Virus record (IMG/VR): IMGVR_UViG_3300033148_005240
Coordinates: 1 to 54,487 of that record
Direction: 5' to 3' (one strand)
DNA length: 54,487 nt
Origin: a virus
Shown: one piece after another, positions 356 to 41,110 of the stretch
Layout of the letters: the number at the start of each line of letters is the position of its first letter
Numbering within the stretch: position 1 is the stretch's first letter
Made by a program: the position numbers and the translations under genes
The notes under the pieces: generated by a model
The model's database searches: none
The model's input: only the letters and a program-made list of their open reading frames with translations
What the model was told of the DNA's origin: nothing

Positions 356-495
356 TGATTATAAATATAATATTAATATTCATAGGAGTATTAGCGTATT
401 ATAAAGGATATTACGAAGGATATAAAAAAGCTAAATTTGATTTGGGATGTTCAACAAATAAACCGAAAGATATGAACTACGGAAAAAATAGATAA
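355..495 (+). CDS. small single-pass membrane protein, unknown
   Basis: A 46-residue frame begins at an ATG preceded by AAAGGAGG, a near-perfect ribosome site. The first 15 or so residues are a run of Ile, Leu, Val and Phe that would form an N-terminal membrane anchor, followed by a Lys/Tyr/Gly-rich tail. It overlaps the preceding stop by one base. It could be an inner-membrane accessory peptide; nothing links it to lysis. Confidence 0.5.
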   Translation: MIINIILIFIGVLAYYKGYYEGYKKAKFDLGCSTNKPKDMNYGKNR

Positions 496-514
496 GGAAA
501 GGAGGACAAAGATT

Positions 515-760
515 ATGTTGACAGGAAGAGATGCGACAGGAGATGCAAGGATTCTTGATAATTTAGCTAAAGGTAAAGATGGCGATGATTTACAGATTCA
601 ATTGCTTCGAGGAATAGTTAAAGGTGTATCATTAGTGATAAAGCTTTTGGTAAGCATACGAGGTAATCAAGTAGCTATTATGAAGAAAACAGGGGTAACG
701 CTAAGACAGCCTGAAGATAGGGATAAAGGTAAAAATAGCACCAATGATACAGAAAAATAA
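515..760 (+). CDS. hypothetical phage protein, 81 aa
   Basis: The ATG at 515 follows a strong GGAAAGGAGG ribosome site. The protein has a charged N-terminus, a hydrophobic middle (residues about 34-50, rich in Ile, Leu and Val) that is more likely an amphipathic or packing helix than a membrane span, and a polar tail rich in Lys, Asp and Asn. It is followed by the first noticeable intergenic stretch of this strand. No family was recognised. Confidence 0.5.
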   Translation: MLTGRDATGDARILDNLAKGKDGDDLQIQLLRGIVKGVSLVIKLLVSIRGNQVAIMKKTGVTLRQPEDRDKGKNSTNDTEK

Positions 761-770
761 GGGAAATTAC

Positions 771-809
771 GCTGAAGTATAAGTCTTTAACAGAGATTTT
801 TACTTCAGC
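771..809 (+). promoter_or_regulatory. 9-bp inverted repeat, possible operator or weak terminator
   Basis: GCTGAAGTA at 771-779 is exactly reverse-complemented by TACTTCAGC at 801-809, with a 21-base spacer. It sits just after a stop codon in the only sizeable non-coding gap (761-872) near the left end. There is no T-run after it, so it is not a classic intrinsic terminator; a repressor site or RNA hairpin is possible. Confidence 0.3.
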
Positions 810-852
810 TAACCTTATTATTGTTAAAAGAACAAAAGTTGGTTAGATACTA

Positions 853-882
853 TTGACAATGGGGATAGAAATATGATATACT
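853..882 (+). promoter_or_regulatory. possible sigma70-like promoter
   Basis: TTGACA at 853-858 and TATACT at 877-882 are 18 bases apart, close to the vegetative consensus, and lie in the gap after the inverted repeat. However, an ATG at 873 for a zinc-ribbon peptide falls inside this element. If the element is a promoter, that peptide is made from an upstream transcript, or its start is elsewhere. In AT-rich DNA such matches arise by chance. Confidence 0.25.
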
Positions 883-1043
883 ATATAAGGGAGAGAGAAA
901 TAGATTGTAGACAATGTAAAAAAGGAAAATTAAGACTTGGGAATAATTTTCCTTATAGTAAAATTCTAGTTGTTTATTATAGATGTGATAATTGTGGACA
1001 CGAAATTAAAATAACTTATAGAAAAAATGAAGATAATAATTAA
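873..1043 (+). CDS. zinc-ribbon peptide, 56 aa
   Basis: The frame opens at ATG 873 after a GGGGAT ribosome-site-like sequence. The peptide has CxxC near residues 12-15 and CDNCGH near residues 38-43, spaced as in the small zinc ribbons found in many phages and transcription-related proteins. It ends 17 bases inside the next gene. Zinc binding is well supported by the paired CxxC motifs. The role (DNA/RNA or protein contact) is unknown. Confidence 0.5.
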   Translation: MIYYIREREIDCRQCKKGKLRLGNNFPYSKILVVYYRCDNCGHEIKITYRKNEDNN

Positions 1044-1218
1044 AGAAAATAAAGAACATTATTATTTAAATAAAGCTGAACAGAAATTTTTAGATACTAT
1101 TAGATTTAATTTTTTAAATAAAGAAATACAATCCTCTATTTTTAGAGATTTAATGTCTAATGCTGAAATTATAGATAAAGATAATAACATAAAAGAAAGA
1201 TTAAAAATAGGATTATAA
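1027..1218 (+). CDS. hypothetical protein, 63 aa
   Basis: A 63-residue, mainly helical, Lys/Ile/Asn-rich protein overlapping the upstream zinc-ribbon gene and abutting the resolvase-like gene (stop at 1216-1218, next ATG at 1219). The position argues for a real coupled gene. No motif was recognised. Confidence 0.45.
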   Translation: MKIIIKENKEHYYLNKAEQKFLDTIRFNFLNKEIQSSIFRDLMSNAEIIDKDNNIKERLKIGL

Positions 1219-1494
1219 ATGAAAAATAAAGGTAGGAAAGCGGAAGAGCATTTTATTAAAACAATAAACAGCGGAGCATTTTTCCATGATGCAGATGCTA
1301 CTTCTGATAAATATGCTCTTGAACACAAATATACAGAAAAGAAAAGTTTTAGAATTACTACGGACTTATTAAAAAAAATACATAATGAAGCATTTGACCA
1401 AAACAAATTTCCTTTATTTGGTATTACAATTAAAGAAGGTGAAAGTCTTTGGATGTTAAAAGTAACCATCCTTAAAAAAACAGGAGGAATTTAA
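1219..1494 (+). CDS. putative Holliday junction resolvase-like (PD-(D/E)XK) protein
   Basis: At 91 residues it matches the small phage and archaeal-type resolvase-like proteins. It starts with a KGRKAEEHF segment carrying the conserved early Glu, has a D-A-D-A-T-S stretch, then E-H-K-Y (about residues 34-37), which fits the E-x-K catalytic motif, followed by basic strands. Such enzymes cut branched DNA during recombination and packaging. The assignment rests on motif order and size; a VRR-NUC-like or other small nuclease is possible. It is followed within two bases by the phosphoesterase gene. Confidence 0.45.
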   Translation: MKNKGRKAEEHFIKTINSGAFFHDADATSDKYALEHKYTEKKSFRITTDLLKKIHNEAFDQNKFPLFGITIKEGESLWMLKVTILKKTGGI

Positions 1495-1495
1495 A

Positions 1496-2626
1496 ATGAA
1501 GAAAATATGGACAAAAGAAAAACTTGATGTTTTAAAAATGTATTTAGAAGCTGGAGCTACTTATCGTGAAATCGCCCAAAAACTTAGTCTTACTTATGAC
1601 CAAGTAGAACATGCTGTGAGGAGATACGATTTAAGAGCAGGGGTTAGTAATACTCTCGTATTACCTAAAGATAAAAGTAAGCTAAAAAAAGACGATGTTA
1701 CAAAATTGGCTAGGCTTATCGGACAAAATATCTATGAGAATTATCGGACAATTCAATTGCGAGAGCCAAAAGCGTTAAAAAGTATAGCAAAAAGAGAAGA
1801 ACATTCTATTTTAGATATTTCAGATATTCATGGTGGAATGATTAATGAAGTATTCGACAGCAAATCTGGAAAGAAAGAGATAACCTATAATCAGAATATT
1901 TTTGAAAAAGAGCTTGCTAATTTACAAGAATCTGTATTTCAAATTCATGAAATCCTCAGAAACGCTTATAAATTAAAGGAATTAACTATTTTTTCTCTTG
2001 GCGACCTTATCACTAATGACCGTATATTTCCTGAACAAACTTTTGAAATAGAGAAAGTTGTTGGACTTCAGATATGGGATATGGTTGGATATTTAACTAA
2101 ATTTATCAACAACTTGCTTAAAATTTATGAAAAAATTACTTTTGTTGGAGTAGTAGGAAATCATGGAAGGTCAAATCCTACTCATTATAATGAACCAGTA
2201 GAAAATAATTTTGAATATTTTCTCTATAAAACTCTTCAGAAACAATTTGCCAATACCAAACGAGTAAATATAATCGTTCCTGAAACAAGACGATATATCC
2301 ATAAAATTTATGGTTGGAGACATCTTATAGAACATGGAGATAGTATGAGAGGGTCAAGTCGTAATTATATCGAAAAACAGATTAAAGACCTTAAATTAAA
2401 TGTAGGAGGTTTTGATGTTTTGCATTTTGGACACTTTCATAAATTAGAGGAAATGGAAATTTCTGATAGTGTAATAGTTAAACAGAATGGTTGTTGGATT
2501 CCAAAGGATAATTATGGTTTTAACAAATTTAAAAACTATAGTATACCTAAACAACATTTTTTTGGCTGTAATGTCAAACGCCCTGAAACATGGAGTTATA
2601 AAATAGATTTAAGAGTAGAACAATAA
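1496..2626 (+). CDS. helix-turn-helix metallophosphoesterase
   Basis: The first 45 or so residues form a helix-turn-helix of the AGATYREIAQKL type. From about residue 108 a calcineurin-like phosphoesterase domain follows, with all metal-binding motifs visible: SDIHGG (DxH), LGD, GNHGR, EHGD and GHFH near the C-terminus. Such enzymes use two metal ions to hydrolyse phosphoesters. The DNA-binding front end suggests a nuclease or nucleotide phosphatase acting at DNA. The ribosome site is CAGGAGGAATTTAAA before the ATG. The neighbourhood of recombination-type genes fits a DNA-processing role, but the substrate is not known. Confidence 0.75.
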   Translation: MKKIWTKEKLDVLKMYLEAGATYREIAQKLSLTYDQVEHAVRRYDLRAGVSNTLVLPKDKSKLKKDDVTKLARLIGQNIYENYRTIQLREPKALKSIAKREEHSILDISDIHGGMINEVFDSKSGKKEITYNQNIFEKELANLQESVFQIHEILRNAYKLKELTIFSLGDLITNDRIFPEQTFEIEKVVGLQIWDMVGYLTKFINNLLKIYEKITFVGVVGNHGRSNPTHYNEPVENNFEYFLYKTLQKQFANTKRVNIIVPETRRYIHKIYGWRHLIEHGDSMRGSSRNYIEKQIKDLKLNVGGFDVLHFGHFHKLEEMEISDSVIVKQNGCWIPKDNYGFNKFKNYSIPKQHFFGCNVKRPETWSYKIDLRVEQ

Positions 2627-2640
2627 AATAGGAGGAAAAA

Positions 2641-2880
2641 ATGAATAACCTTACTCCCCGAAGATACGAAAAAGTTGATGCGAATACAATAAAAATAATT
2701 GTAGAACAAGAGAAGGCTATTGATTTAGCTAATCTTATTGCAGGTAAAGACCAATTAACAGCACAGATAAAAGATTTAACTGAAAGATTAAAGAATATTG
2801 ATGAAATTATTGTAGAAGCAAAGAAGTTGGGTATTGTTCCTAAAGTTAAATCTAAAGATGTAAAAAAGAAAGGGAAATAA
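2641..2880 (+). CDS. small coiled-coil protein, 79 aa
   Basis: The ATG follows ATAGGAGGAAAAA, a strong ribosome site. After about 20 residues the protein becomes one long amphipathic helix with leucine/isoleucine spacing typical of a coiled coil, and it ends in a Lys-rich tail. It probably oligomerises or binds a partner. No function can be assigned. Confidence 0.6.
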   Translation: MNNLTPRRYEKVDANTIKIIVEQEKAIDLANLIAGKDQLTAQIKDLTERLKNIDEIIVEAKKLGIVPKVKSKDVKKKGK

Positions 2881-2881
2881 A

Positions 2882-3124
2882 TTGACAGCAGAAATAATTA
2901 AAATTACTAAACAAAGGTCAAAATTTGGAGGAGATGTATATCTGGTTTGTTTTAAATCTTTAATGGGAAAAAGTTATATTTCTTATATTGCTCCTAAGTT
3001 TCGTAATTTTAGTCGTTGGAAAAAAGTTCTTTCCGTAGGAATTACTTTAACTGGTCTTAAATTATCGAGTAAAGGTAAAAATCTTATTGATGCGGATAGT
3101 CGGTTTCAAACAGTAGGAAAATAA
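2882..3124 (+). CDS. hypothetical protein, 80 aa, TTG start
   Basis: The frame begins with TTG two bases after the preceding stop and has no ATG near the N-terminus, so TTG is the likely start. The product alternates short beta-type segments (ITKQRSKFGG, VYLVCFKSL) and basic turns, compatible with a small OB- or SH3-like fold, but no family was recognised. The end lies two bases before an inserted HNH endonuclease gene. Confidence 0.5.
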   Translation: MTAEIIKITKQRSKFGGDVYLVCFKSLMGKSYISYIAPKFRNFSRWKKVLSVGITLTGLKLSSKGKNLIDADSRFQTVGK

Positions 3125-3125
3125 T

Positions 3126-3806
3126 ATGAAGAAATGTTCTAAATGTAAAATCAAAAAACCTATTATCGAGTTTCGTAAAAACAAAACTACTAAAAATGGC
3201 TATACTTATTACTGTAAAGACTGTCTGAAACCTATAAATAAAAAAGACAGAATTAAACATAAAGAAAAAAGGAGGGAATATAGAATTAAATATAAGAAAA
3301 ATCACTACCAAGAAATTAAAAATAAAGAAAAGGAATATCGTTTAAAAAATCGAGATAAATTAAATTTAAAAAGCAAGAAATGGCGAGAAAATCATAAAAC
3401 ATATATTAGAAACTATAGCCAAAAACGAAAAAAGAGGCGAAATAAATATGAACGAGAAAGAAGGGAAAAAGATAAAACATTAAAATTAATTAATGCTATA
3501 AGAAAAAGAATGTGGGAAGTTTTAAAAGGAAAAAAGAAATCTTTTTCATCATTGAAATTATTAGGATGTTCTATAAAACAACTAAAACAGCATTTAAAAA
3601 ATCAATTCAAAATAGGAATGACTTGGGAAAATTATGGGAGAGGTTGGTATGATAGGCAAGAGTGGCAAATAGACCATATTCGTCCTTGTGCTTCTTTTGA
3701 TTTAAGTAAAGCAAGTGAACAAAGAAAATGTTTTAATTATAGTAACCTGCGACCCCTGTGGGCGAAGGAAAATTTAAGTAGAAGTAAAACGAGGAGAATA
3801 ATATGA
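3126..3806 (+). CDS. HNH homing-type endonuclease (family A, copy 1)
   Basis: The 226-residue protein has an N-terminal zinc-finger-like part (CSKCKIKKPI...CKDC), a long Lys/Arg-rich helical linker, a conserved 'LLGCSIKQLKQHLKNQF' module, then the HNH core WQIDHIRPCASFDLSK and NLRPLWAKEN. Five proteins in this window share this build. Such freestanding enzymes nick or cut DNA at a conserved site and copy themselves into phages that lack them. It sits between an unknown gene and a small basic protein gene, with a 4-base overlap into the latter, so it is inserted at a gene junction without breaking a frame. Confidence 0.85.
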   Translation: MKKCSKCKIKKPIIEFRKNKTTKNGYTYYCKDCLKPINKKDRIKHKEKRREYRIKYKKNHYQEIKNKEKEYRLKNRDKLNLKSKKWRENHKTYIRNYSQKRKKRRNKYERERREKDKTLKLINAIRKRMWEVLKGKKKSFSSLKLLGCSIKQLKQHLKNQFKIGMTWENYGRGWYDRQEWQIDHIRPCASFDLSKASEQRKCFNYSNLRPLWAKENLSRSKTRRII

Positions 3807-4069
3807 GTATACATAAATCTTTAAAATCTAAACGGTTTCCTAAAATTCGCACTGTTCGAAAAAGATATGAACGTATTGAGAAACTTAAAAGAACTTTAAA
3901 ATGGGTAGAAGGAATGTCAATTTATGGATTGCCAAAAGAAATTATACGAAGATTAAAATGGAAAATCAAGAAAGAAGAAGTAAAAAAGGAAATAGTTCCG
4001 CTTTACGATTTTATACAGGAAGAGTCAAAGAAGAAGAAAACAAGTCGAGATATTGGTAAAATAAAATAA
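3803..4069 (+). CDS. small basic protein resembling the PVC/Omnitrophota 'small basic protein' family
   Basis: The 88-residue protein begins MSIHKSLKSKRFPK and continues with R-x-V-x-KRYERIEKLK, KWVEGMSIYGLPK and KWKIKKEE. In recalled members of the small basic protein family (I believe TIGR04137) of Chlamydiae, Verrucomicrobia and Omnitrophota, the order is M-S-x-H-x-S-L, R-x-V-L-x-R-x-ERI-x-L, KW-x-EG-S-V-FGLPK, then a Lys-rich tail. The order and spacing agree closely. The function in those bacteria is not established; the charge suggests RNA or ribosome contact. The stop at 4067-4069 overlaps the next ATG at 4069. If correct, it is a host-derived gene and a clue to host lineage. Confidence 0.6.
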   Translation: MSIHKSLKSKRFPKIRTVRKRYERIEKLKRTLKWVEGMSIYGLPKEIIRRLKWKIKKEEVKKEIVPLYDFIQEESKKKKTSRDIGKIK

Positions 4070-4522
4070 TGAAATTTTTAGTGTTAAATAGAAAAGAAAT
4101 GGAAACTTTTGAGACACATATGAAACATATTGTTATTTCTATATGTGCCCCCTGAAGCGAAACCTGTTGAAATTTTTTCAAACAATCCTCCAGAAGGGAT
4201 TTTATATTTAAGATTTCCAGATTTTGATGAACCATATATAAAAGGTTATCCATATAATTATTTATTATTTGATGAATATAATACTAAAGATATTTTAAGA
4301 TTTGTAACTAATTATAAAGATAAAGTAGAACTGATAATATGTCAATGTGAAGCAGGGGTTTCTCGCAGTGCTGGAGTTGCAGGGGCATTAAGTAGAATTT
4401 TAAATAGAAACGATTTTTATCGATTTGAGGTTTATAAAAGGAATGGTTATAGAACCTTAGTTATTTGGGAACATGAACTTAAAGATGAAAATAGATTAAA
4501 GAGAAAATTATTAGAATTTTAA
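4069..4522 (+). pseudogene. dual-specificity-phosphatase-like protein, frameshifted at a C5 run
   Basis: From ATG 4069 the frame reads MKFLVLNRKE... HIVISICAP and hits TGA at 4153. The next frame (open 4130-4522) supplies the rest, including CQCEAGVSRSAGV, the C-x5-R loop of Cys-dependent phosphatases (Cys and Arg both present). Both halves match one known phage/bacterial family, in which HIVISI near the N-terminus precedes the CEAG-SRS loop. The shift falls in CCCCC at 4148-4152; one base less would restore the frame. A separate protein from TTG 4130 is less likely because it would lose the first strands. The enzyme would remove phosphate from proteins or nucleotides. Error, decay or slippage cannot be separated here. 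Confidence 0.6.
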
Positions 4523-4534
4523 GGAATATGTAAT

Positions 4535-5401
4535 ATGAAAATTTTAATTTGTGGAGATTCTCATATTTCTGAGAGAAGTATACCTGAACTAACAGAAGTC
4601 TTTAATGAAATATTAAAAATCAAAGCAGATAGGTTTGTGCAATTAGGTGATTTCTTTGAGCATAATAGACCAACCCCTGCGGAGTTGAGATTTGCCAGTT
4701 CTATCGTAAAAAAATTAAAAAAGAAATTTAAAGATGTTACTATTATTTCTGGCACTGGAACTCATGATTTATTACATGATATTTCAGTGATTGAATTTTT
4801 AAAAGAGTTAGATATTAATGCTGTTAAAGGGGATTATGTTAAAGATAATATATTGTTTGCTCATTACATGCTTCATGAATCCGTATTAGAGTATGGTTCA
4901 GGTAAATGTGGTATTAAAGATTTAGCAAAGTATAATTTTGTATTTTTAGGGCATCAACATAATCCACAAGATATAACAAAAAAAATATTTCATGTTGGTT
5001 CTGTAAGGTATCAAAATTTTAATGAAGTAGTCGATAAATTTAAAAGAGTAGCGATTTTAGAAAACGGTATTGTGAAATTTGTTCCTTTAAAATCTCCTTA
5101 TCCAATGATTGATGTTCATTCTTTAGAAGAATTAAAAAAGATAGAACCTGGTAAAAAGAAAGTTAGATTAATTATAAATAGTTTCGAGCAATTTAAAAAA
5201 GAAGTAAATGAGATAGGACAATGGCGACATAAATTTAATGTGTTTAAGATAAAGTTAGATTTTAAAAACATGCCAACTACTAAACCTGAAAAAATTCTAT
5301 CACAATCTAAAAAATTAAAAGAAATTCTTATGGAAGGTATAAAAAAAGTTAAAGATGAAGATGTTCGCAAACTTTTAAAGGGGGTTTTAGATGAAAAATA
5401 A
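4535..5401 (+). CDS. Mre11/SbcD-like recombination nuclease subunit (gp47-like)
   Basis: The 288-residue protein has the calcineurin-like nuclease motifs DSH (residues 8-10), GD (38-39), a GNHD-equivalent reading GTHD (75-78), a lone His at 110 and GHQH (139-142). The gp46/Rad50-type ATPase lies three genes downstream, so the pair probably forms the exonuclease complex that resects DNA ends for phage recombination. The metal-binding Asn of GNHD is replaced by Thr, which could lower activity or change metal use. The C-terminal region is a Lys-rich helical part suited to contacting the ATPase. It overlaps the next gene by 11 bases. Confidence 0.8.
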   Translation: MKILICGDSHISERSIPELTEVFNEILKIKADRFVQLGDFFEHNRPTPAELRFASSIVKKLKKKFKDVTIISGTGTHDLLHDISVIEFLKELDINAVKGDYVKDNILFAHYMLHESVLEYGSGKCGIKDLAKYNFVFLGHQHNPQDITKKIFHVGSVRYQNFNEVVDKFKRVAILENGIVKFVPLKSPYPMIDVHSLEELKKIEPGKKKVRLIINSFEQFKKEVNEIGQWRHKFNVFKIKLDFKNMPTTKPEKILSQSKKLKEILMEGIKKVKDEDVRKLLKGVLDEK

Positions 5402-6302
5402 ATTAACAAAATATATTAATGCTTGTAAAAAACTTATAGATATGCCTTATAATAAATTGAACCTTGAGAACTATAAAGGCAAAGTATTAAATGCTTATAA
5501 TTTAAAAACTCTTGAATTTATCGATACTAACCCAAAATTACCTATTAAATTAATGTCAAATCAACATGACAATGCTGGCATTATCAAATCCGTTGTTAAA
5601 CCTAATAAAAAAAGAAATATTTATATAGTAGGTAAAGGGATTCTGTTTGATGCAGGAGGGTATGATTTAAAACCAAGTGGTCGGATGGATGATATGAAAT
5701 GTGATATGAGTGGGATGGCTATTGCTTTTGCAGTGGCTTCTTATTTAAAAAATGATAATGTAATTGCCTATTGTCCTGTTTCAGTTAATTTAATTCCCAA
5801 TGGTATAACTCCAGGAGACCAAATTAAGATAGGAAATAAAGAAGTTGAAATAACCAATACAGATGCCGAAGGAAGATTAATTTTAGCCGAAGCATTAACT
5901 CATCTTTCTATCAAAAAGAACGATATAGTTATTACCGTAGCAACTTTGACAGGGGCTTGTGCTTATGCGTTAGGAGAAAAGGCAACTGCATTTATGACTC
6001 CGACCAAAGAGCTGACTAAGAAATATAAAATAGCAGGGGAGAAAGCTGGGGAGCTTTGTTGGCGTTTACCTCTTTGGGATTATTTACAAAAGAAATATTA
6101 TAACAAAAGAAGAATTCGAAACAGTATTAAGGAAATTAAAGCTGGCACTATAGAAGGAGGCTTATTTATCAAACAATTTGTTCCATTTCCTAAGAATTGG
6201 ATTCATCTTGATATTGCCTCAAGTGGCTATGATAATGTAAAAAATCGAGCAACTGGTGAGCCTATAAGAACCCTTGTCGAATTTATTAGAAGGATAAAAT
6301 GA
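5391..6302 (+). CDS. M17 leucyl aminopeptidase, catalytic domain only
   Basis: The 303-residue protein carries the hallmark NTDAEGRL (about residues 155-162), plus KGILFDAGGYDLKPSG and DDMKCDMSG, which hold the zinc ligands and catalytic Lys, and the C-terminal HLDIAS strand. These enzymes remove N-terminal residues using two zinc ions in hexamers. Cellular enzymes have 450-500 residues with an extra N-terminal domain; here only about 50 residues precede the catalytic core. It is a rare gene for a phage and sits inside the Mre11/Rad50 block, overlapping both neighbours. Its substrate may be a phage protein, host peptides or Cys-Gly; this is not known. Confidence 0.85.
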   Translation: MKNKLTKYINACKKLIDMPYNKLNLENYKGKVLNAYNLKTLEFIDTNPKLPIKLMSNQHDNAGIIKSVVKPNKKRNIYIVGKGILFDAGGYDLKPSGRMDDMKCDMSGMAIAFAVASYLKNDNVIAYCPVSVNLIPNGITPGDQIKIGNKEVEITNTDAEGRLILAEALTHLSIKKNDIVITVATLTGACAYALGEKATAFMTPTKELTKKYKIAGEKAGELCWRLPLWDYLQKKYYNKRRIRNSIKEIKAGTIEGGLFIKQFVPFPKNWIHLDIASSGYDNVKNRATGEPIRTLVEFIRRIK

Positions 6303-7051
6303 CCAAAAAACCAAAGAAAATTTTTACATCTGCGAATATAGAAAAACTATTAAGTAATCGATTTGCTCCTCCAGCTTGGGCATTTTTACCTCAAGTAAGA
6401 AATGGAACAGGTTATGCAAGAACAGCTAGAACAGCAGATGCAATTGCAATGAGTCTATATCCTAGTAGGGGATTATATTTAAATGGTTTTGAAATAAAAA
6501 TATCTCGTAGTGATTGGCTTAATGAATTAAAAAATCCAGACAAAGCAGAGGCAATTGCTAAATATTGTGATTATTGGTGGATTGTAGCTCCAAAAGATAT
6601 TGTTAAAATTGAAGAATTACCTTCTAATTGGGGTTTAATGATTCCTTTTGGTGCAACAACTAAAATTGTCAAAGAAGCAAAACAATTGAAATCAAAAAAT
6701 CCTGATAAGCTTTTTTTAGCAGGGGTATTAAGAAAAGCTCAAGAAGTAATTACTCCTACAGCAGAACTAAGAGAAGAACATAAAAAAGGATATGATTTAG
6801 GTAAAAATAATACAGAATCCAATTTTAAATGGGAGAAAGATGAACACAAGAAACTTAAACAGACAGTTCTTGAATTTGAACAAGCAAGTGGAGTTAAAAT
6901 AGATACTTGGCAAGATAGCAAGGAAATTGGAGAAGCTGTTAAATTAGTTTTGAATGGTGAATATCTTAGGATAAAGAAAAATTTACAACGATTACTTAAA
7001 AATGCCGAAGACATTGTTATTGATATAAAAGAAAATTTAGGAAAAAAATGA
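6299..7051 (+). CDS. MmcB-like PD-(D/E)XK DNA repair protein
   Basis: Residues about 60-110 contain GFEIKISRSDWLNEL, then YCDYWWIVAP and WGLMIPFG. These are the core strands of MmcB-related proteins, with E-x-K as the likely catalytic motif. Family members are linked to DNA repair in bacteria and are common in phages. The C-terminal third is helical and charged. It overlaps the aminopeptidase and the Rad50-like gene by 4 bases each, placing it in the recombination operon. Nuclease activity is inferred. Confidence 0.65.
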   Translation: MTKKPKKIFTSANIEKLLSNRFAPPAWAFLPQVRNGTGYARTARTADAIAMSLYPSRGLYLNGFEIKISRSDWLNELKNPDKAEAIAKYCDYWWIVAPKDIVKIEELPSNWGLMIPFGATTKIVKEAKQLKSKNPDKLFLAGVLRKAQEVITPTAELREEHKKGYDLGKNNTESNFKWEKDEHKKLKQTVLEFEQASGVKIDTWQDSKEIGEAVKLVLNGEYLRIKKNLQRLLKNAEDIVIDIKENLGKK

Positions 7052-8484
7052 ATATAAAAACCATCAAATTAACTAATTTTAAGTGTTTTAAGGGGATTAA
7101 ATTCGCATTTGACCCAATGACTCTAATTAGAGGGAAAAATGGCGTAGGTAAGACCACAGCCACGCTGGAAGCCCTTTTATATACTCTATATGGCTACACG
7201 ACCAAAGAATTACTCTCTGATTTGCCTACAAGAGGAGTATCCAAATCTTGTGCTGTAGAAGTAGAATTTACTAGAAATAATCATACTTATATCGTAAAAA
7301 GAGCTTATCCTAGCAAGCTTTTTATTATTAAAGACGGTTCAGTAATTAAATTTAATACTACTGCGGAAGGAAATACTTTTTTAACTGAATTAGTAGGGTC
7401 AAGGGAATATTTTCAGAAATTTAGAGTTATAGATAAAGCTAAAGAAAGTAATCTTTTAGAGCAAGGTAATGTAGCTTTAAAGAGAATTATCTTTGCAGGT
7501 TCGGATGAAATTTTTAATAATATGAGGGTTAGATTATTAGAGATAAAAAGAAAGCGAGAACTCCTTAATAAAGATAGAGTAAAGGTCTCTTCTCATTATC
7601 CTTCAGAAAAAAGATTATCAGTGGTGACAAATAAAATGAAGGAATTAGAGGAACAAGAGACAGATTTGATTAAAACTATAAGAGAATTTGAAACTGATTT
7701 TCGTAAAACAGAAAGAGAAACAGGGAAATTAGAAAATGAAAAAGTCAATTATAATAATCGGAAAAATATATTAAATCGTCCTAGCAAGAAATGTTATGCT
7801 TGTGAACAACTTCTTCCTATTCCTAAAGCTAAAGAAATGTTAGAAGAAGCAAATAAAAAAATCAAAGAAATTAATAATTCTTTAGCAACTAAAAATTCTG
7901 AAATAAAAGAAATGAAAGACCTTATAAATTCTCATAGAACTATAAAAGGCAACATTTCCAATAAATTACAAACCTTATTTGAGTTAAGAAATGAATTAGA
8001 ATCTAGATTAAAGATGAAGGATTTTATTTACACTAATAAAGATGAAGAAATAGTTAAACAAGCGGTGAAAGAATTGGATAATATTTCTTCTTATTATTTA
8101 ACAAAAACTGTTAAAACTTTAACGCCAATAATAAATTCCATTTTACAAAAAATTAATTTTACAATTTCTTTTAATGTAAATAATAAAGGTAAATTTGCAA
8201 TTGAATTACAAAAACCCAATGCCATTTATAAATACAAAGACCTTAGTTGCGGTGAAAAAATCATGCTTCAAATTGCTTTTAAATTGGCTATACTTTTACA
8301 AAATAACGATACAGGTATTATCGTTGCAGATGAAGGGTTTGCTTCATTAGATGAAGATAATTTGCGACATATCTTAGAAATTTTTGAAGGTCTTCCTTTT
8401 CAGCTTTTATTAGTATTGCACCATGCTCCTGATTTAGGAGACAATATAAAAACAATAGATTTAAATAATGAAAAACAAAAGTAA
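7048..8484 (+). CDS. Rad50/SbcC-like ATPase (gp46-like)
   Basis: The 478-residue protein has a Walker A GKNGVGKTT at about residues 29-37, two coiled-coil arms with a zinc hook CYAC near residue 249, an ABC signature LSCGEK near 400, Walker B IIVADEGFASLDED near 425 and an H-loop LLVLHHAP. This order is diagnostic of Rad50/SbcC. With the nuclease subunit at 4535 it would process DNA ends for recombination-dependent replication. It is shorter than cellular SbcC (about 1000 residues), as usual for phage gp46. A homing endonuclease gene begins 17 bases before its stop. Confidence 0.9.
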   Translation: MNIKTIKLTNFKCFKGIKFAFDPMTLIRGKNGVGKTTATLEALLYTLYGYTTKELLSDLPTRGVSKSCAVEVEFTRNNHTYIVKRAYPSKLFIIKDGSVIKFNTTAEGNTFLTELVGSREYFQKFRVIDKAKESNLLEQGNVALKRIIFAGSDEIFNNMRVRLLEIKRKRELLNKDRVKVSSHYPSEKRLSVVTNKMKELEEQETDLIKTIREFETDFRKTERETGKLENEKVNYNNRKNILNRPSKKCYACEQLLPIPKAKEMLEEANKKIKEINNSLATKNSEIKEMKDLINSHRTIKGNISNKLQTLFELRNELESRLKMKDFIYTNKDEEIVKQAVKELDNISSYYLTKTVKTLTPIINSILQKINFTISFNVNNKGKFAIELQKPNAIYKYKDLSCGEKIMLQIAFKLAILLQNNDTGIIVADEGFASLDEDNLRHILEIFEGLPFQLLLVLHHAPDLGDNIKTIDLNNEKQK

Positions 8485-9486: not shown

Positions 9487-9641
9487 ACCAATATTTTGAT
9501 ACAGAACGGATTGTTTGTTTGGCTTGTGGACATATATGGAAACTTAATTCAGATAAACCAATTACTGATGAACAACATTGGAATTGGGTAAGAGATATGC
9601 TAAGAGAACATAATGAAATAAAAAAAGGGAAAGATGAATAA
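9483..9641 (+). CDS. small CxxCGH protein, 52 aa
   Basis: The start ATG overlaps the upstream stop (ATGA) and the end overlaps the sulfotransferase start. The peptide contains CLACGH (residues 12-17) and later His residues (about 32 and 43), which could complete a zinc site. It contains several Trp residues in a helical second half. No family was recognised. Confidence 0.45.
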   Translation: MNQYFDTERIVCLACGHIWKLNSDKPITDEQHWNWVRDMLREHNEIKKGKDE

Positions 9642-10218
9642 ATTATTTTTTATAATTGGTATGAGACGTTCTGGAACTTCAATATTGAGAGATTTAATTT
9701 CAAAACATCCTCAAGTTGATAAAATTTTATTTGAACCCTATGAACTTTTCCATGCCATTGCAGTGTCTCATTTAGGAAGATATAAAAACGACCCCTATGT
9801 TAAAAAAATAATAAACGATTTTCGTAATACCTCTGCAAAATATAAAGGAGCTAAGTTCGCCCTTAATGCTGGAATAGAAGCTATGACTTGGAGAAGATTG
9901 GCTTTAGTATTTCCTGAAGCAAAATTTATATTTATTGTTAGAAATGCCGAACAAACTTATAAATCTTGGATAGGACAGGATTTTAATAGTGTAAGAGGTT
10001 TATGTTCTAAAGAGTTATATATGGGATTTAGACATCATATAGTAGATAGTTTTGTTCATTTTGAAGAAAAAAATTTAAATAATAGTAGTATGGTATCGTA
10101 TGAATTTTTAGTAGAAAATCCTGATGAAGAATTAAAAGAAGTATGGAAAATTTTAGGAATTGAACCTATAACTGGATTAAAACAATATATGAAAAAACCT
10201 AAAAATTGGAGTAAATAA
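9634..10218 (+). CDS. sulfotransferase (first copy)
   Basis: Residues 6-17 read IIGMRRSGTSIL, the 5'-phosphosulfate-binding loop of PAPS-dependent sulfotransferases, and AKFIFIVRNAEQTYKSW near residue 110 is the 3'-phosphate-binding strand with its conserved Arg. The 194-residue length is compact for the family. It would move sulfate from PAPS to a sugar, lipid or protein hydroxyl. The next genes encode a nucleotidyltransferase and an APS kinase that could supply PAPS. The ribosome site AAAAGGG lies just before ATG 9634. The acceptor is not known, but the glycan genes around it suggest a polysaccharide. Confidence 0.8.
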   Translation: MNKLFFIIGMRRSGTSILRDLISKHPQVDKILFEPYELFHAIAVSHLGRYKNDPYVKKIINDFRNTSAKYKGAKFALNAGIEAMTWRRLALVFPEAKFIFIVRNAEQTYKSWIGQDFNSVRGLCSKELYMGFRHHIVDSFVHFEEKNLNNSSMVSYEFLVENPDEELKEVWKILGIEPITGLKQYMKKPKNWSK

Positions 10219-10709
10219 TGAATATATTGGATATTATGTATGAGCCAAATAAAAATAAATATTCTATTTTAGAAGAAAATGGACATAGAAAAGAAATTAC
10301 AAAAAAAGAATTTTATGAAATTTTAAAATCAAATAAATCAAAGGTAGAATTTACTGGAGAATGGAGTTTATTTATAGGAAGATGGCAACCTTTACATGAA
10401 GGGCATATAAAATTAATGAGAACAGTTTTAGATAAAGGAGGGAAAATTTGTATAGGTATTAGAAATACTAAACAGGATGAAAAAAATCCTTATAATGTAA
10501 AAGAACGAATTGAAATGATTAAAAAAGTTTTTGATAAAGAAATTAAGGAAAATAAAGTAAAATGGGTATCTTTACCTGATATAAAAGAGATTTGTCATGG
10601 CAGAAAAGTAGGTTGGGGTATTACTGAAATAATTTTAGACAAAAAGACTGAAACGATTTCAGCAACAGAAATAAGGAAGCAAAATGAAAAAAAGGAAAAT
10701 TCATCGTAG
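10218..10709 (+). CDS. HxGH nucleotidyltransferase, possible partner of APS kinase
   Basis: The core has IGRWQPLHEGH (residues about 52-62), the HxGH nucleotide-binding motif of the cytidylyl/adenylyltransferase superfamily, and ISATEIR near the C-terminus, matching the ISSTxxR motif. It resembles NadM-like adenylyltransferases more than classical ATP sulfurylase, with about 45 extra N-terminal residues. Its place between a sulfotransferase and APS kinase suggests adenylylation of sulfate or activation of a polar head group. Sulfate adenylylation is inference only. It overlaps the next gene by 26 bases. Confidence 0.7.
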   Translation: MNILDIMYEPNKNKYSILEENGHRKEITKKEFYEILKSNKSKVEFTGEWSLFIGRWQPLHEGHIKLMRTVLDKGGKICIGIRNTKQDEKNPYNVKERIEMIKKVFDKEIKENKVKWVSLPDIKEICHGRKVGWGITEIILDKKTETISATEIRKQNEKKENSS

Positions 10710-11430
10710 AAATTTTAGTTTTCAGGGAATTATTTATAGAATTTTTGTAATTTGTGTAAATGCCTTATTTTTTAAAGTTGGAGCTAAACAAGCCATGCAA
10801 AATTATGGAGCATTAGGGGCTTCTTTAATTTGGAACAGTATTAATATGGCATTATACTTTTTTTATCATGGGATATTTTTAAAATTATTTTCTTTAGAAA
10901 TTAAAACTAAAGGAGCAGTGGTTTGGTTTACTGGACTTCCTTGTTCGGGTAAAACTACTATTGCAGATGCAGTAGCAATTGTATTAAAAAAATTAGGAAA
11001 AAACGTGGAAAGATTAGACGGTGATGTTGTCCGTAAAGGGAAATTAAGTGATGATTTAGGCTTTTCACAAGAAGATAGGGATAAAAATATAAATAGAGTA
11101 AATTTTGTAAGCAAACTTTTATCAAGAAATGAAACTATAGTTTTAGCTTCTTTTGTTTCTCCTTATCGAAAAGTAAGAGATAAAATAAGAAAAAATGTTA
11201 TAAATTTTATAGAAGTTTATGTAGATACTTCTTCTGAAGAATGTGCTCGAAGAGATGTTAAAGGAATGTGGAAACTTGCTAAAGAAAAGAAAATAAAAAA
11301 TTTTACTGGTTATAATGCCCCTTATGAACGACCCTTTAAAAATGAGATTACTGTTTGGACTGAATTAGAAACCATAGAACAAAGCACTCAAAAAGTAATT
11401 AATTATCTTAAACAAAAAAAGCTTATATGA
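10684..11430 (+). CDS. cysC: DUF2061-adenylylsulfate (APS) kinase fusion
   Basis: Residues about 15-75 contain two hydrophobic segments in the DUF2061 style, which would anchor the protein in the membrane. From about residue 78 an APS kinase domain follows: WFTGLPCSGKTT (P-loop), ERLDGDVVRKG, GFSQEDRDKNINR and the FTGYNAPYE substrate loop. APS kinase phosphorylates adenylylsulfate to PAPS, the donor used by both sulfotransferases here. Membrane anchoring would place PAPS synthesis next to glycan assembly. The kinase motifs are clear; the absence of a recognised canonical ATP sulfurylase leaves the APS source open. Confidence 0.85.
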   Translation: MKKRKIHRRNFSFQGIIYRIFVICVNALFFKVGAKQAMQNYGALGASLIWNSINMALYFFYHGIFLKLFSLEIKTKGAVVWFTGLPCSGKTTIADAVAIVLKKLGKNVERLDGDVVRKGKLSDDLGFSQEDRDKNINRVNFVSKLLSRNETIVLASFVSPYRKVRDKIRKNVINFIEVYVDTSSEECARRDVKGMWKLAKEKKIKNFTGYNAPYERPFKNEITVWTELETIEQSTQKVINYLKQKKLI

Positions 11431-12122
11431 AAACTAAATTTTGTAGCAAATGCCATAAGAGAAAAAATATAATAGAATTTCATAAAGATAAAAATAGGAA
11501 ATACAGAAGACATGCTTATTGTAAAGAATGTAGACAAACTTTTAATATGAAAACTCGTAATAAATTAAGAAAAATAAATAAGAAAATATGTTGTCATTGT
11601 AAGCAAATTTTACCTTTAAATGCCTTTTCAAATGATAAATTATCTTTAGATAGTAAAACTTTTATATGCAAAAAATGTAAATATTATGTAGATAAAAAAT
11701 ATCGATTGACAAATAAAGAAAATATTAGAAAAAAGAAGAAAGAATATAAAATAAAAAATAGAACAAAAATATCTTTACATTCAAAAAATTATAATAAAAA
11801 GAAATATAAAATAAATTTAAATTTTAGATTGTTAAATATTTTGAGAAGTAGAATATACTTGGCATTAAAAGAAAAACATAAATCGTTGTCAACAATAAAG
11901 TTGATAGGTTGTTCCGTTAAAAAATTACGAAAATATTTAGAAAAACAATTTAAAAGAGGAATGACTTGGGGTAATTATGGTTTATATAGTTGGCATATTG
12001 ACCATATCAAACCATGTGCTTCTTTTGATTTAAGTAAAGTAAATGAACAGCAAAAATGCTTTAATTATAAAAACTTACAGCCCTTATGGGCAAAAGAGAA
12101 TTTAAGTAAGGGGAAATCATAA
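11427..12122 (+). CDS. HNH homing-type endonuclease (family A, copy 2)
   Basis: Two CxxC-type fingers (CSKCHKRKN...CKEC and CCHCKQ...CKKC) precede the Lys/Arg-rich linker and the HNH core WHIDHIKPCASFDLSK with NLQPLWAKEN. It is the copy with a duplicated finger. The start overlaps the APS kinase stop (ATGA) and the TAA overlaps the next ATG (TAATG), so it is neatly slotted between two sulfation genes without damage to either. It is presumably a selfish invader rather than part of the sulfation pathway. Confidence 0.85.
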   Translation: MKTKFCSKCHKRKNIIEFHKDKNRKYRRHAYCKECRQTFNMKTRNKLRKINKKICCHCKQILPLNAFSNDKLSLDSKTFICKKCKYYVDKKYRLTNKENIRKKKKEYKIKNRTKISLHSKNYNKKKYKINLNFRLLNILRSRIYLALKEKHKSLSTIKLIGCSVKKLRKYLEKQFKRGMTWGNYGLYSWHIDHIKPCASFDLSKVNEQQKCFNYKNLQPLWAKENLSKGKS

Positions 12123-13108
12123 TGAAATTAATAACGATTGGAGGACACAGAAAATCAGGAACTACCTTGCTTGCTAGTCTTTTGGATGGACATCCTAACC
12201 TTTTTGTTTATCCTTATGATTTACATTGGACATACAGTTTTTATCCAGAATATATAAAATCCAAATATTCTAAAAAAGAAAAAATAACGCAAATTACAAA
12301 TATAATTTTACCAGACCTTTATCAGATTTTAGAAAAATGGGTAAAATATGATAAACAAACAATTCAAAATAAAATAAAACCAGAGATTGAAAGAAGAATT
12401 AGAAATTATTTACAAAATAAAAATTCCACAAAAGATTATTTAGATGCACAAATAAAAAGTGTAGTTGCAGTATTAGGTAAAGAACCCAATAACACAATTG
12501 TAATAAAAGATACCCATTGTGAAGTTTATGCGAATTTATTATTTAATTTTTATCCAGATTCTAAATTTGTTAATATAATTAGAGACCCTAGAGATAATTT
12601 TGCTTCTATTTTAACTGGATGGGATAAACATTATAAAAATCAATACGATAGTAAAGAAAGATTATTAAGAGATTTTATAGATAGGGGGTATTTATGTATG
12701 AGAATGGCAAAGGATAATGCGATTAAATTTGGCGTTGGTAAATACATAACCATTCGCTATGAAAATTTAGTGCAATATCCAATACAAGTCATGGCAGAAT
12801 TATGTCAATGGATAGGAATTAGAGAATCTCTTTTAAATCTTAATCCGACTTTTTGTGGAGTAGAGTGGAAAGGAAATAGTTTTACGAAAACTTACAAAGG
12901 AATCAGTAAAAACAGAATTGGTATTTACAAAGAAATATTATCAAAATATCAGAGAAAAGTTATTGAATATTATTTTGGAGACTTAATGGAATCTTTTGGA
13001 TATGCTCTCGATTATAAAAAAGAAGAATGTGTAAATGCAATTAGAGAACATTATAAATGGCTTAATGCTAATGGATTCCACTCTGGAAAACCTTATAGGA
13101 AATATTAA
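12122..13108 (+). CDS. sulfotransferase (second copy)
   Basis: The N-terminus TIGGHRKSGTTLLASLLDGH is the PAPS 5'-phosphosulfate loop, and KFVNIIRDPRDNFAS near residue 152 is the 3'-phosphate strand. With 328 residues it is a full-size Sulfotransfer_3-like enzyme, longer and different from the copy at 9634, so the two probably sulfate different positions. It is followed, overlapping by one base, by the AEP transaminase, tying sulfation and phosphonate genes into one transcript. The acceptor is unknown. Confidence 0.85.
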   Translation: MKLITIGGHRKSGTTLLASLLDGHPNLFVYPYDLHWTYSFYPEYIKSKYSKKEKITQITNIILPDLYQILEKWVKYDKQTIQNKIKPEIERRIRNYLQNKNSTKDYLDAQIKSVVAVLGKEPNNTIVIKDTHCEVYANLLFNFYPDSKFVNIIRDPRDNFASILTGWDKHYKNQYDSKERLLRDFIDRGYLCMRMAKDNAIKFGVGKYITIRYENLVQYPIQVMAELCQWIGIRESLLNLNPTFCGVEWKGNSFTKTYKGISKNRIGIYKEILSKYQRKVIEYYFGDLMESFGYALDYKKEECVNAIREHYKWLNANGFHSGKPYRKY

Positions 13109-14235
13109 TGAAAAAAATTAAAAGAAATATTATATTAACCCCAGCACCAGCTACAACAACTGATACTGTTAAATATGCTCAAGTTGTTCCTGATATTTGT
13201 CCAAGAGAAAAAGAATTTGGAGAATTAATGAATAATATTAGACAAGATTTAATAAAAATTATTCATGGAGATAAGAAATATACTTCTATATTATTTACAG
13301 CTTCAGGAACTTCAATTATGGATGCTGTTATTAATTCTGTTATTCCTAAAAGTGGGAAATTATTAATTTTAGAAAATGGGGCTTATGGTAAAAGAATAGA
13401 ACAAATTGCAGAAGCATATAATATAAAATATAAAACTTTAAAAGTTAAATGGGGAACATCTTTAGATTTGAAATATTTAGATGAATATTTAAGTTGTTAT
13501 TGCAATGCTTTTTCCGCAGTAGCAGTTATTCATCATGAAACAACTACAGGTATTTTAAATGATATTGAAGCTATAGGAAAGATAGTCAAAAAATATAAAA
13601 AAGTTTATATTATAGATACTATTTCCAGTTTTGGAGGGATACCTATCAATATTAAAAAAATAAAAGCAGATTATATTATGGGTTCGGCAAATAAATGTTT
13701 ACAAGGGATGCCTGGTATTTCTTTTGTTATAGCTAAAAAATCTGAATTAAAGAAAATAAAAAATTATTCTGTAAGGTCTTATTATTTAAATCTATGGCGT
13801 AATTATGAATATTTTGAAAAGAAAAAACAAACCCCATTTACTCCAGCTATTCAATGTATTTATGCTTTGAAACAAGCATTAAAAGAATATTTTAAAGAGG
13901 GAGAAGGTAATAGATGGAAACGCTATCAAAAAAATTGGATAATTTTAAGTATAGGTATGGAAGAATTAGGGTTCGAACCTTATTTAAATTTTGGTTTAGA
14001 AAGTAGAATTGTTACTACTTATTATGAACCTAAATCCCCTTATTATAAAAGAAAAAAATTTAATTTTAATAAATTTCATGATAAATTAAAACAAAAAGGC
14101 TTTACTATTTATCCTGGAAAATTAACAGATGAAAAAACTTTTAGATTAGGAAATATTGGAGACATAACAAGAAAAGATATTAAAAAATTTTTAAAAGCAG
14201 TAAAGAAGGTGAAAAATGATTGTTTTATCTCATAA
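13108..14235 (+). CDS. phnW: 2-aminoethylphosphonate transaminase
   Basis: This class V aminotransferase of 375 residues has NIILTPAPATTT at the N-terminus, TASGTSIMDAV (cofactor phosphate loop), YIIDTISSFGG (Asp contacting the pyridoxal ring) and SANKCLQGMPG near residue 195, where Lys binds PLP. The last motif is typical of PhnW. In the biosynthetic direction the enzyme aminates phosphonoacetaldehyde to 2-aminoethylphosphonate (AEP). The mutase, the decarboxylase subunits and two LicD genes follow, so synthesis rather than breakdown is expected. It overlaps the next gene by 20 bases. Confidence 0.85.
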   Translation: MKKIKRNIILTPAPATTTDTVKYAQVVPDICPREKEFGELMNNIRQDLIKIIHGDKKYTSILFTASGTSIMDAVINSVIPKSGKLLILENGAYGKRIEQIAEAYNIKYKTLKVKWGTSLDLKYLDEYLSCYCNAFSAVAVIHHETTTGILNDIEAIGKIVKKYKKVYIIDTISSFGGIPINIKKIKADYIMGSANKCLQGMPGISFVIAKKSELKKIKNYSVRSYYLNLWRNYEYFEKKKQTPFTPAIQCIYALKQALKEYFKEGEGNRWKRYQKNWIILSIGMEELGFEPYLNFGLESRIVTTYYEPKSPYYKRKKFNFNKFHDKLKQKGFTIYPGKLTDEKTFRLGNIGDITRKDIKKFLKAVKKVKNDCFIS

Positions 14236-15184
14236 ACAAATAACTTCTTTAAATATCACTTTTAATGAATGTTTAAATGCCATAGTAGATGTTTTAAAAG
14301 AACACGCTAAGAAGCGAGTTTTTATGCCATCTAAAGTAAGTATTACTCCTGAAGAAGGGATATTTTTCACATCAATGCCTTCTTATGTTCCGAAATATAA
14401 TATGTCAGGAATTAAATGGGTAAGTCGTTTTCCCAAAAATAGTAATAAAAATATTCCAAAAGTAATTAGCACTTATTTACTAAATGATATGATTACAGGG
14501 CATCCTTTAGCAGTAATGGAAGCTAGTTGGCTTACTGCTATGAGAACAGGAGCAATGGCTGGCTTAACTGCTAAATATTTTGCTATTCAAGAAGCCAAAA
14601 CCCTTTCAATTATAGGAGCAGGGGTGCAATCAGTAGCTTGTTTACAATTTATAAAATTACTGTGTCCCCAAATTAAGAAAATAAAAATTTATAGATATAA
14701 GAATACCACAATTCGATTTATTAAAAGATTTAAATCGTCAAAATTAATTTTTGAAATTTGTTCATCAATTAAAAAAACAATAGAAAATTCTGATATTATT
14801 TTAACAGCAACTACTTATGCAGATAAACCTTTTATCAATCCAGAATGGTTGAAACCAGGAATTTTAGCATTACCAATTCATCATAGAGGTTGGGAAAAAT
14901 GTGCTATGAAATTTGATAAAACTATTACAGATGATAAAAAACAAACTTTATATTATAAATCAAAAGGAGAATTTAGCGGAGGATTACCGACTATTTATGC
15001 AGAATTAGGCGAGATTATTTTAGGCAAAATAGCAAGGTCTAATAATAGAGAAAAAATTATAGCTTATAATATAGGAATAGCTATTTGCGACATTGCTTTA
15101 GCTAAAATAATATACGAAAAAGCAGTAAAAAAAGGAATTAAAAATCAACTTTTTAATGATTATAAAATAGGATTTTATTTATGA
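14216..15184 (+). CDS. ornithine cyclodeaminase/mu-crystallin family protein
   Basis: The 322-residue protein has the family's substrate region with GIKWVSRFP and MEASWLTAMRTGAMAGL, then a Rossmann NAD-binding motif IGAGVQS (about residues 137-143). Members include ornithine cyclodeaminase, alanine dehydrogenase and imino-acid reductases. Its position between AEP transaminase and PEP mutase suggests an NAD(P)-linked step on an amino- or imino-compound, perhaps N-modification of AEP or reduction of an aldehyde. No member of this family is known to me in AEP synthesis, so the role is open. Confidence 0.75.
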   Translation: MIVLSHKQITSLNITFNECLNAIVDVLKEHAKKRVFMPSKVSITPEEGIFFTSMPSYVPKYNMSGIKWVSRFPKNSNKNIPKVISTYLLNDMITGHPLAVMEASWLTAMRTGAMAGLTAKYFAIQEAKTLSIIGAGVQSVACLQFIKLLCPQIKKIKIYRYKNTTIRFIKRFKSSKLIFEICSSIKKTIENSDIILTATTYADKPFINPEWLKPGILALPIHHRGWEKCAMKFDKTITDDKKQTLYYKSKGEFSGGLPTIYAELGEIILGKIARSNNREKIIAYNIGIAICDIALAKIIYEKAVKKGIKNQLFNDYKIGFYL

Positions 15185-15837
15185 AAAAGAAAATAATAGT
15201 ATATGCTAATGTAGTATGTGACATGCCTCATAGGGGACATATCGAATTTTTTCGAAAAGCAAAAGCTTTAGGAGATTATCTTATTGTAGGAGTGCATCCT
15301 GATAATATAACTCAAGAATATAAAAGAAAACCTATAATGTCTTATGAAGATAGGCTAGAAATTTTAAAGTCAATTAAAGAAATAGATTTGGTAATTAAAG
15401 ATTGTAGAGATAAAGAATCTCCTACAATATACGAAAATTTAAAAAAATATAATGTCGATATAATAGTTCATGGAGACGATTTCATACCTTCTTATACAAA
15501 AAAAGTAGAAGAGATGGGAATAAAACCGATATTAGTTCCTTATTATCCAAATTTATCTACTACTAAATTACTACAAAATATTAGAAGCAAAAATACTCTA
15601 AAAAATGCTTTAAAAGAGAAAGAAAAATTAATAATAATATCTGCTAATGATGCAATTACAGCGAAACTAGTAGAACAATATGGATTTGATGGGATTTGGA
15701 TTTCTTCCTTTGAAACAAGTGCTAGATTAGGATTAGTAGATAATGAAACTATAAATTTAACAGATATGATAAATATAGCTAGACCAATTGTAGAATCTGT
15801 AAATATTCCTGTTATAGTGGATGCCGATACAGGATAA
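15181..15837 (+). CDS. pepM: cytidylyltransferase-PEP mutase fusion, N-terminal fragment (frame broken)
   Basis: Residues 1-130 form a nucleotidyltransferase domain with HRGH (residues 17-20), as in ethanolamine- and choline-phosphate cytidylyltransferases. After a short linker the PEP mutase barrel begins: GIWISSFETSA, LGLVDNET (catalytic Asp/Asn) and IVDADTG, where TAA stops the frame. The barrel continues in another frame from 15837. The nucleotidyl domain suits activation of AEP to CMP-AEP; the mutase turns phosphoenolpyruvate into phosphonopyruvate, the first C-P bond step. Compared with the family, about 25 bases including the GYGN loop are missing at 15835-15840. If real, only the nucleotidyltransferase may still work. 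Confidence 0.8.
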   Translation: MKKKIIVYANVVCDMPHRGHIEFFRKAKALGDYLIVGVHPDNITQEYKRKPIMSYEDRLEILKSIKEIDLVIKDCRDKESPTIYENLKKYNVDIIVHGDDFIPSYTKKVEEMGIKPILVPYYPNLSTTKLLQNIRSKNTLKNALKEKEKLIIISANDAITAKLVEQYGFDGIWISSFETSARLGLVDNETINLTDMINIARPIVESVNIPVIVDADTG

Positions 15838-16418
15838 CAGTTAAAGAATTAGAAAAAATCGGAATATCTGCTGTTTGCATCGAAGATAATATATTTCCAA
15901 AATCTAATTCTCTTTGGGGAGACAAAATTCCTATAGCAGGTATGAAATTTTTCGGTGCAAAAATCAAAGCAGGAAAGGATATTCAAAAAACAAAATATTT
16001 TTGTATTGTAGCAAGAACAGAAGCTCTCATTAGAGGATATGGCAAAAAAGAAGCTTTAAAAAGAGCCAATTATTATGCAGATTGTGGTGCAGATTTAATT
16101 TTAATGCACAGTAGGGATAAAACTGGAAAAGAAGCATTAGAAATTCCTAAATATTGGAAAAGAAATATTCCTTTAATAATTATACCTTCTAAATTCCCAC
16201 AAATTACAAACAAACAATTATTTAAAGCAGGGTATTCTGTAATAATCTTTGCTAACCAAACTCAAAGAGCCAAAATATTTGGAGTTAAAAAAATATTACA
16301 GATATTGAAAACTAAACAAACTGCAAAATCATTGGAAAATTATATAGCAACTTTAGATGAATTTCGTAGTTTAACCCCAATAGAAGAAACAAAAAGAAGA
16401 AAATTAAAATATGAATAA
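15837..16418 (+). pseudogene. pepM: PEP mutase, C-terminal part continuing the gene at 15181 (frame broken)
   Basis: Reading from ACA at 15837, before the first ATG at 15942, gives TVKELEKIGISAVCIEDN then IFPKSNS, the EDK-FPK-NS gate and catalytic loop (Glu and Lys present), then IVARTEALIRGYG with the substrate Arg, and MHSR with the His. These are diagnostic PEP mutase motifs. Translation from ATG 15942 would omit the EDN-FPK-NS part, so a separate active protein is unlikely. The stop lies in the start region of the decarboxylase gene (8-base overlap). A direct re-read of bases 15800-15860 would settle whether the gene is broken. Confidence 0.8.
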
Positions 16419-16758
16419 AAAATTTGATTTCATAGCAGGAGTGCCTTGTAGCAAATTTAAAGGAATTGTAGATTATAATAAAATTTTAATTTCTACAAGA
16501 GAAGATGAAGCGTTAGCTATGGCAGTTGGGGCATATTTGGTTGGGAAAAAATCAATGACTTTTATGCAAAATAGTGGTTTAGGCAATTGTGTAGATGTTA
16601 TAACTAGTCTTTTGAAACCTTATAATATTTCTATTCCCTTATTGATAAGCGTTAGATATAATCCTGAACATCATAGATTTATGGGTTTAATAACAAAAAA
16701 ATTATTAAAACTTTTAAATTATAATAATTACAAATTAATAGAGAAAGATAATGACTAG
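16411..16758 (+). CDS. phosphonopyruvate decarboxylase, alpha (TPP pyrimidine-binding) subunit
   Basis: The 115-residue protein has IAGVPCSKFKG, then STREDEALAMAVGAYLVG, where the Glu activates thiamine diphosphate, and FMQNSGLGNCVDVITSL. These match the N-terminal half of phosphonopyruvate decarboxylase (Ppd) and the alpha subunit of sulfopyruvate decarboxylase (ComD). The beta half is the next gene with an 8-base overlap. Next to PEP mutase and AEP transaminase, phosphonopyruvate is the likely substrate, giving phosphonoacetaldehyde and CO2. Most bacterial Ppd enzymes are single chains of about 380 residues, so the split form is unusual. Confidence 0.8.
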   Translation: MNKKFDFIAGVPCSKFKGIVDYNKILISTREDEALAMAVGAYLVGKKSMTFMQNSGLGNCVDVITSLLKPYNISIPLLISVRYNPEHHRFMGLITKKLLKLLNYNNYKLIEKDND

Positions 16759-22091: not shown

Positions 22092-22092
22092 G

Positions 22093-30219: not shown

Positions 30220-30238
30220 TATCTTTTTATTTTTCTTA

Positions 30239-34689: not shown

Positions 34690-34736
34690 AAATATTTCTC
34701 CTTATTTTAAAATATTTTCTTTTCTTAATTTTTCCT

Positions 34737-35156: not shown

Positions 35157-35168
35157 TTTTATTTCTCC

Positions 35169-37850: not shown

Positions 37851-37853
37851 AAA

Positions 37854-38417: not shown

Positions 38418-38420
38418 TTC

Positions 38421-39408: not shown

Positions 39409-39423
39409 TATTTCCTCCCTTAC

Positions 39424-39680: not shown

Positions 39681-39701
39681 ACCTTTCCTTACGTTTTTAT
39701 C

Positions 39702-39738: not shown

Positions 39739-39753
39739 TTATTATATATTATT

Positions 39754-41001: not shown

Positions 41002-41110
41002 TTTACTACCTCCTATGTAGTTTTTTATTTTAGTGTTACTTTTTCCACCTTTGAAATTTCACACTTACTTACTATTTAAAACTCCTTACATTCTATCTTT
41101 TGAAATTATT

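Follow-up and report, generated by a model that had tools for sequence, protein, structure and literature searches.

The PVC signature protein, the small basic protein of family TIGR04137, has served to mark out members of the PVC superphylum. It has been described as exclusive to these bacteria (PMC3444138), and PMC7203096, citing Lagkouvardos et al. 2014, presents it as binding RNA and as a possible substitute for ribosomal protein L30, which is missing from the PVC group. The other relevant systems are ribosomal proteins encoded by viruses. For example, bS21 and bL12 encoded by viruses are incorporated into ribosomes (Mizuno et al. 2019, PMC6375957), as described in a paper whose text does not mention uL30. 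Here, we describe a TIGR04137 homologue encoded by a phage, found in a window of 54,487 nucleotides (the whole stretch of viral DNA that was analysed), which comes from an environmental sample. Our literature searches by family or locus name, which covered few subscription papers, returned no report of viral copies. As far as these searches reached, a viral lineage within TIGR04137 is unreported, while the family itself and phage-encoded ribosomal proteins are already known.

The gene lies at positions 3803–4069 on the plus strand and is intact from ATG to TAA. Its product of 88 amino acids (pI 10.45) begins MSIHKSLKSKRFPKIRTVRKRYERIEKLKRTLKWVEGMSIYGLPKEIIRRLKWKIKKEEV... and contains every motif quoted in the earlier note that assigned it to TIGR04137, namely MSIHKSLKSK, RYERIEKLK, KWVEGMSIYGLPK, and a basic tail. 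The ribosome-binding site region (GAGGAGA; 3786–3802, plus strand) is directly 5' of the ATG, and the gene shares four bases (ATGA) with the end of the upstream HNH gene. Against the TIGR04137 HMM, for which NCBIfam sets a curated cut-off of 50 bits, the ORF scored 52.2 bits (E = 3.9e-14). A six-frame search of the window returned it as the sole TIGR04137 match (52.3 bits, E = 3.2e-15), and neither Pfam nor PHROG gave a significant family match. With a score above the cut-off and no better-matching phage family, the assignment to TIGR04137 held. When the profile was built from 48 cellular copies only, the window protein scored 59.9 bits; because the best of 2000 shuffles reached 10.0 bits, basic composition is ruled out as the source of the match. 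All invariant columns of the conserved MSxHxSL...R.V..R.ER...L...LPK core are kept in the window protein. Twelve columns, including R16, V18, R21, E23, R24, L43, and K45, were invariant over 23 aligned viral, Omnitrophota, and Planctomycetota copies, so the viral protein retains the core conserved in cells. At the level of sequence homology, these comparisons show that the phage ORF at 3803–4069 encodes a homologue of the PVC signature protein.

Copies also occur in four other IMG/VR records: L002/L024 (25 kb), L023 (100 kb), L025 (54 kb), and L026 (20 kb). The L026 copy passes the TIGR04137 cut-off (53.2 bits), and those of L023 (42.7 bits), L025 (41.1 bits), and L002 (40.6 bits) fall below 50, so that three of the five viral copies are under the curated value. 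No copy was found in 50,697 GenBank phage records or 72,556 plasmids, and further viral scans with Omnitrophota-type sequences as queries yielded nothing. The viral copies share a GLPKE motif and a lysine/glutamate-rich tail, whereas cellular copies have Ala/Pro/Lys tails. To place them, we used a tree in which the 5 viral copies were set among 33 from Omnitrophota and 15 from Planctomycetota, the two PVC phyla that it covered. The five viral copies made up one side of a branch (95/97) against the 48 cellular copies, in a short alignment in which L002 has a long branch. By path length, the Omnitrophota copies were nearest to the viral ones. GC content was 28.1% for the gene and 28.8% for the phage. 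Values of dN/dS between the window copy and the others were approximately 0.17–0.36, with dS near saturation; dN was well below dS in most pairs, and the ratio for the L026–L002 pair was near 1. Since all five viral copies group together on the tree, we take them, for this phage group, to show an old viral lineage that has been maintained in a replication/recombination cluster. Recent capture or contamination was considered and is ruled out by the separate branch, the synteny, and the base composition. The earlier note had spoken of an unusual captured gene; a one-off capture does not fit these data, and what stands is a viral gene on an old branch, with a conserved place in several phages.

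The gene is not found throughout these phages. For example, in L027, whose exonuclease is 67% identical to that of the window, the exonuclease gene is followed by SbcD with the TIGR04137 gene missing, and there is no copy in its 25 kb. Since L027 does without the gene at the same place, phages of the wider group can dispense with it. Kept in several records and missing in this one, the gene is accessory, long established in a phage group but not universal.

The surrounding genes, all on the plus strand, form a cluster that recurs in the related records. The first is a small zinc-ribbon-like basic protein (152–355), followed by a small conserved phage protein with an RGNQVAIM motif (515–760); both have matches in L025, L026, and L023, the former in the same order. 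A conserved protein of 91 amino acids (1219–1494), nuclease-like by eye and with no Pfam match, is 44–55% identical in L025, L026, and L027. Next are an exonuclease/phosphoesterase with an N-terminal HTH (1496–2626; phrog_284, 2e-37), also 89% identical in L025 and 74% in L026, a small coiled-coil protein (2641–2880) that is 33% identical to the product of the gene preceding the TIGR04137 copy in L023, and an 80-amino-acid conserved phage protein (2882–3124; 59% identity in L025 and 64% in L026). Directly upstream of the TIGR04137 gene is an endonuclease VII-like HNH endonuclease (3126–3806; phrog_1035, 5.4e-12). Because synteny places no such gene at the corresponding position in L025 or L026, it is probably a mobile insertion and outside the module. 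The window contains five paralogous HNH endonucleases (3126–3806, 11427–12122, 22048–22734, 29638–30318, and 37854–38417); the paralogues are 42–50% identical to the first and scattered over both strands, like free-standing homing endonucleases. Downstream are genes for a dual-specificity-phosphatase-like protein (4130–4522; PF00782 at 0.0029, under the cut-off, and phrog_5614), an SbcD-like nuclease subunit (4535–5401; phrog_100, 2.3e-11, and PF00149; also in L025 and L027), and an SbcC-like ATPase subunit (7048–8484; phrog_77, 2.9e-32; 62% identical in L025). A cytosol aminopeptidase gene (5391–6302; Peptidase_M17, 2e-62) is inside this SbcCD region and is missing there in L025.

The copies of L025, L026, and L023 sit in the same cluster as that of the window, preceded by the zinc-ribbon-like and NQVAIM genes, and the exonuclease and 80-amino-acid genes are common to the window, L025, and L026. 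The L025 copy has the phosphatase-like gene directly downstream, with SbcD and SbcC genes after it. The L026 copy is downstream of a DNA polymerase gene; in L023, a DNA polymerase B gene precedes the copy, and genes that read as SbcC/SbcD-like follow it. The L026 polymerase (487–4773, 1428 amino acids) appears by eye to hold two inteins when set against the 781-amino-acid family B polymerase of L023. The setting in L002 is a different one, with a gene for peptide deformylase, a ribosome-linked enzyme, a few genes upstream of the copy, and ClpP genes. Terminase phrog_2 was found in none of the records, so the packaging genes are either divergent or outside the fragments.

Elsewhere in the window, the phage carries aminoethylphosphonate pathway genes (13108–17224), comprising an aminotransferase (TIGR03301, 425.9 bits, over the cut-off), a cytidylyltransferase–PEP mutase, and a phosphonopyruvate decarboxylase that is split in two. 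The PEP mutase is disrupted, with a stop and a frame change between its two parts (15181–15837 and 15942–16418). Two LicD/cholinephosphotransferase-like genes come after the pathway. Two sulfotransferase-like genes (the one at 12122–13108 recognised by eye) and an APS kinase gene (5.1e-52) are found at 9634–13108, and their predicted activities suggest sulfation of some surface compound.

The earlier note had also read the gene as a clue to a PVC host. A search of 84,980 species genomes recovered 19 relatives, every one of them from Omnitrophota (3) or Planctomycetota (16), and the Omnitrophota profile outscored the Planctomycetota profile for four of the five viral copies. Our best inference is that the hosts belong to the PVC group and are most likely Omnitrophota, which agrees with the earlier reading and stops short of proof of the host phylum. 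CRISPR spacers, which the note had named as a further check, did not add to this. When 20 kb of the window (34488–54487) was compared by blastn with 384 Omnitrophota genomes, 20 loci were inspected and none was in a repeat array; the matches were short AT-rich stretches, apart from one shared protein domain (L070). There, a tail-type protein (42910–45222) shares a 138-base stretch with 72% DNA identity with an Omnitrophota genome (L070, 3–2360), in which the counterpart is a large protein adjoining a RecQ-like gene. As a clue to the host, this shared stretch is only suggestive. The capsid-like protein was found in 0 of 384 Omnitrophota and 0 of 392 Planctomycetota genomes in a search run without a positive control, so that this empty result carries little weight. 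The exonuclease had one match among 334 Omnitrophota genomes (L065), at 26% identity too distant to name a host, and no prophage was found.

As to what the protein does, a link to the ribosome or translation, raised in the earlier note, is plausible, with the support being indirect. A TIGR04137 match was present in 264 of 285 Omnitrophota genomes (258 passing the cut-off), at one per genome among the matches listed, and was absent from 14 control genomes at E 0.001. The uL30 profile (TIGR01308) had no match in any of 117 Omnitrophota or 15 Planctomycetota genomes; in the control set, 10 of 14 genomes had one. This absence supports, without proving, a replacement of uL30 by the TIGR04137 protein. 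We give nearly even chances to the reading that the phage homologue is kept in phages of PVC hosts, most likely Omnitrophota, where it would act on the host ribosome in the role of uL30 and bias translation. During infection, a phage-made copy of this small, highly basic protein would be produced, bind rRNA, and replace or supplement, on the large ribosomal subunit, a host copy that itself would stand in for the missing uL30. Translation may then be biased towards phage messages, as is thought for phage bS21 and bL12. Both the ribosome binding and the bias are steps that we infer. The single TIGR04137 gene in nearly all Omnitrophota genomes, together with the missing uL30, argues for this reading, as does the peptide deformylase gene near the L002 copy. 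However, the window neighbours are DNA-processing rather than translation genes, and the cellular gene in Omnitrophota is often directly preceded by a SPOR-domain gene (L003, L035, L043, L044, and L053) and not by a ribosomal one.

The main rival, and a serious one, is nucleic-acid binding in phage replication. The product would then be a general DNA/RNA-binding protein that works off the ribosome, with the exonuclease and SbcCD, in replication or recombination. In the window and in L025, the gene sits between those for the exonuclease and SbcD, which is consistent with this, as are the polymerase genes upstream of the L023 and L026 copies, the SbcC/SbcD-like genes that follow in L023, and the net charge of the protein (+13.7 to +18.6). 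Lagkouvardos and colleagues also reportedly saw unspecific DNA/RNA binding by the cellular protein. Yet phage neighbourhoods bring together early genes of unlike function, the L002 copy has peptide deformylase and ClpP genes around it instead, and the invariant core is that of a near-universal, single-copy cellular protein. We judge this explanation somewhat unlikely. Alternatively, the phage may use the protein for takeover, in competition with the host's version: as a decoy or inhibitor, it would block or retarget the host function through its phage-specific C-terminal part. The distinctive tail of the viral copies would suit such a role, but the core residues have been retained and nothing points to loss of the conserved surface, and we think this improbable. 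Passive cargo from the host with no function in the phage, or host DNA joined through an assembly error, might be imagined for a small gene that is missing at the same place in L027, but it is very improbable given five records, a conserved gene order, a separate branch, phage-like composition, and dN below dS in most pairs.

Under any reading, the viral copies affect how the family is used. Because phages carry this marker protein too, a TIGR04137 match on a metagenome contig is no longer proof of a PVC cell. The same match may serve as a simple sequence flag for phages of mostly uncultured PVC hosts. Phages have retained a version of their own, which suggests that the protein sits at a control point, such as the ribosome or the nucleoid, and offers a new handle on its role in PVC cells.

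Compared with the cellular TIGR04137 protein (CT421.2 in Chlamydia trachomatis), the phage copies have the same N-terminal core of 45–50 residues, invariant residues, basic character, and length range. They differ in being phage-encoded, with VRKR-like and GLPKE motifs, a C-terminal tail and branch of their own, and a place in a phage gene cluster. The uL30 protein (TIGR01308) is the proposed functional counterpart, with the PVC genomes tested lacking it and having TIGR04137. The window protein has no sequence match to uL30, and two AlphaFold models of low confidence (pLDDT 64 and 63) predict a helix at about residues 21–31 and no L30-like sheet. Foldseek found no match for the phage protein model (pLDDT 64), and we found no solved structure or ribosome chain of the TIGR04137 family; the models decide nothing on fold or function. 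Phage-encoded bS21, bL12, and other ribosomal proteins (PMC6375957) are similar in that a small host protein of the translation type is carried by phages, apparently under purifying selection, and in the exchange proposed on host ribosomes. Unlike them, the TIGR04137 protein is a putative rather than a proven ribosomal protein. We hold only tentatively, as possible and somewhat doubtful, that phages of uncultured PVC bacteria carry a superphylum-specific ribosome-associated protein and remodel host ribosomes with it. If this is true, PVC phages would have a lineage-specific equivalent of phage bS21, and the gene would mark them directly at the sequence level.
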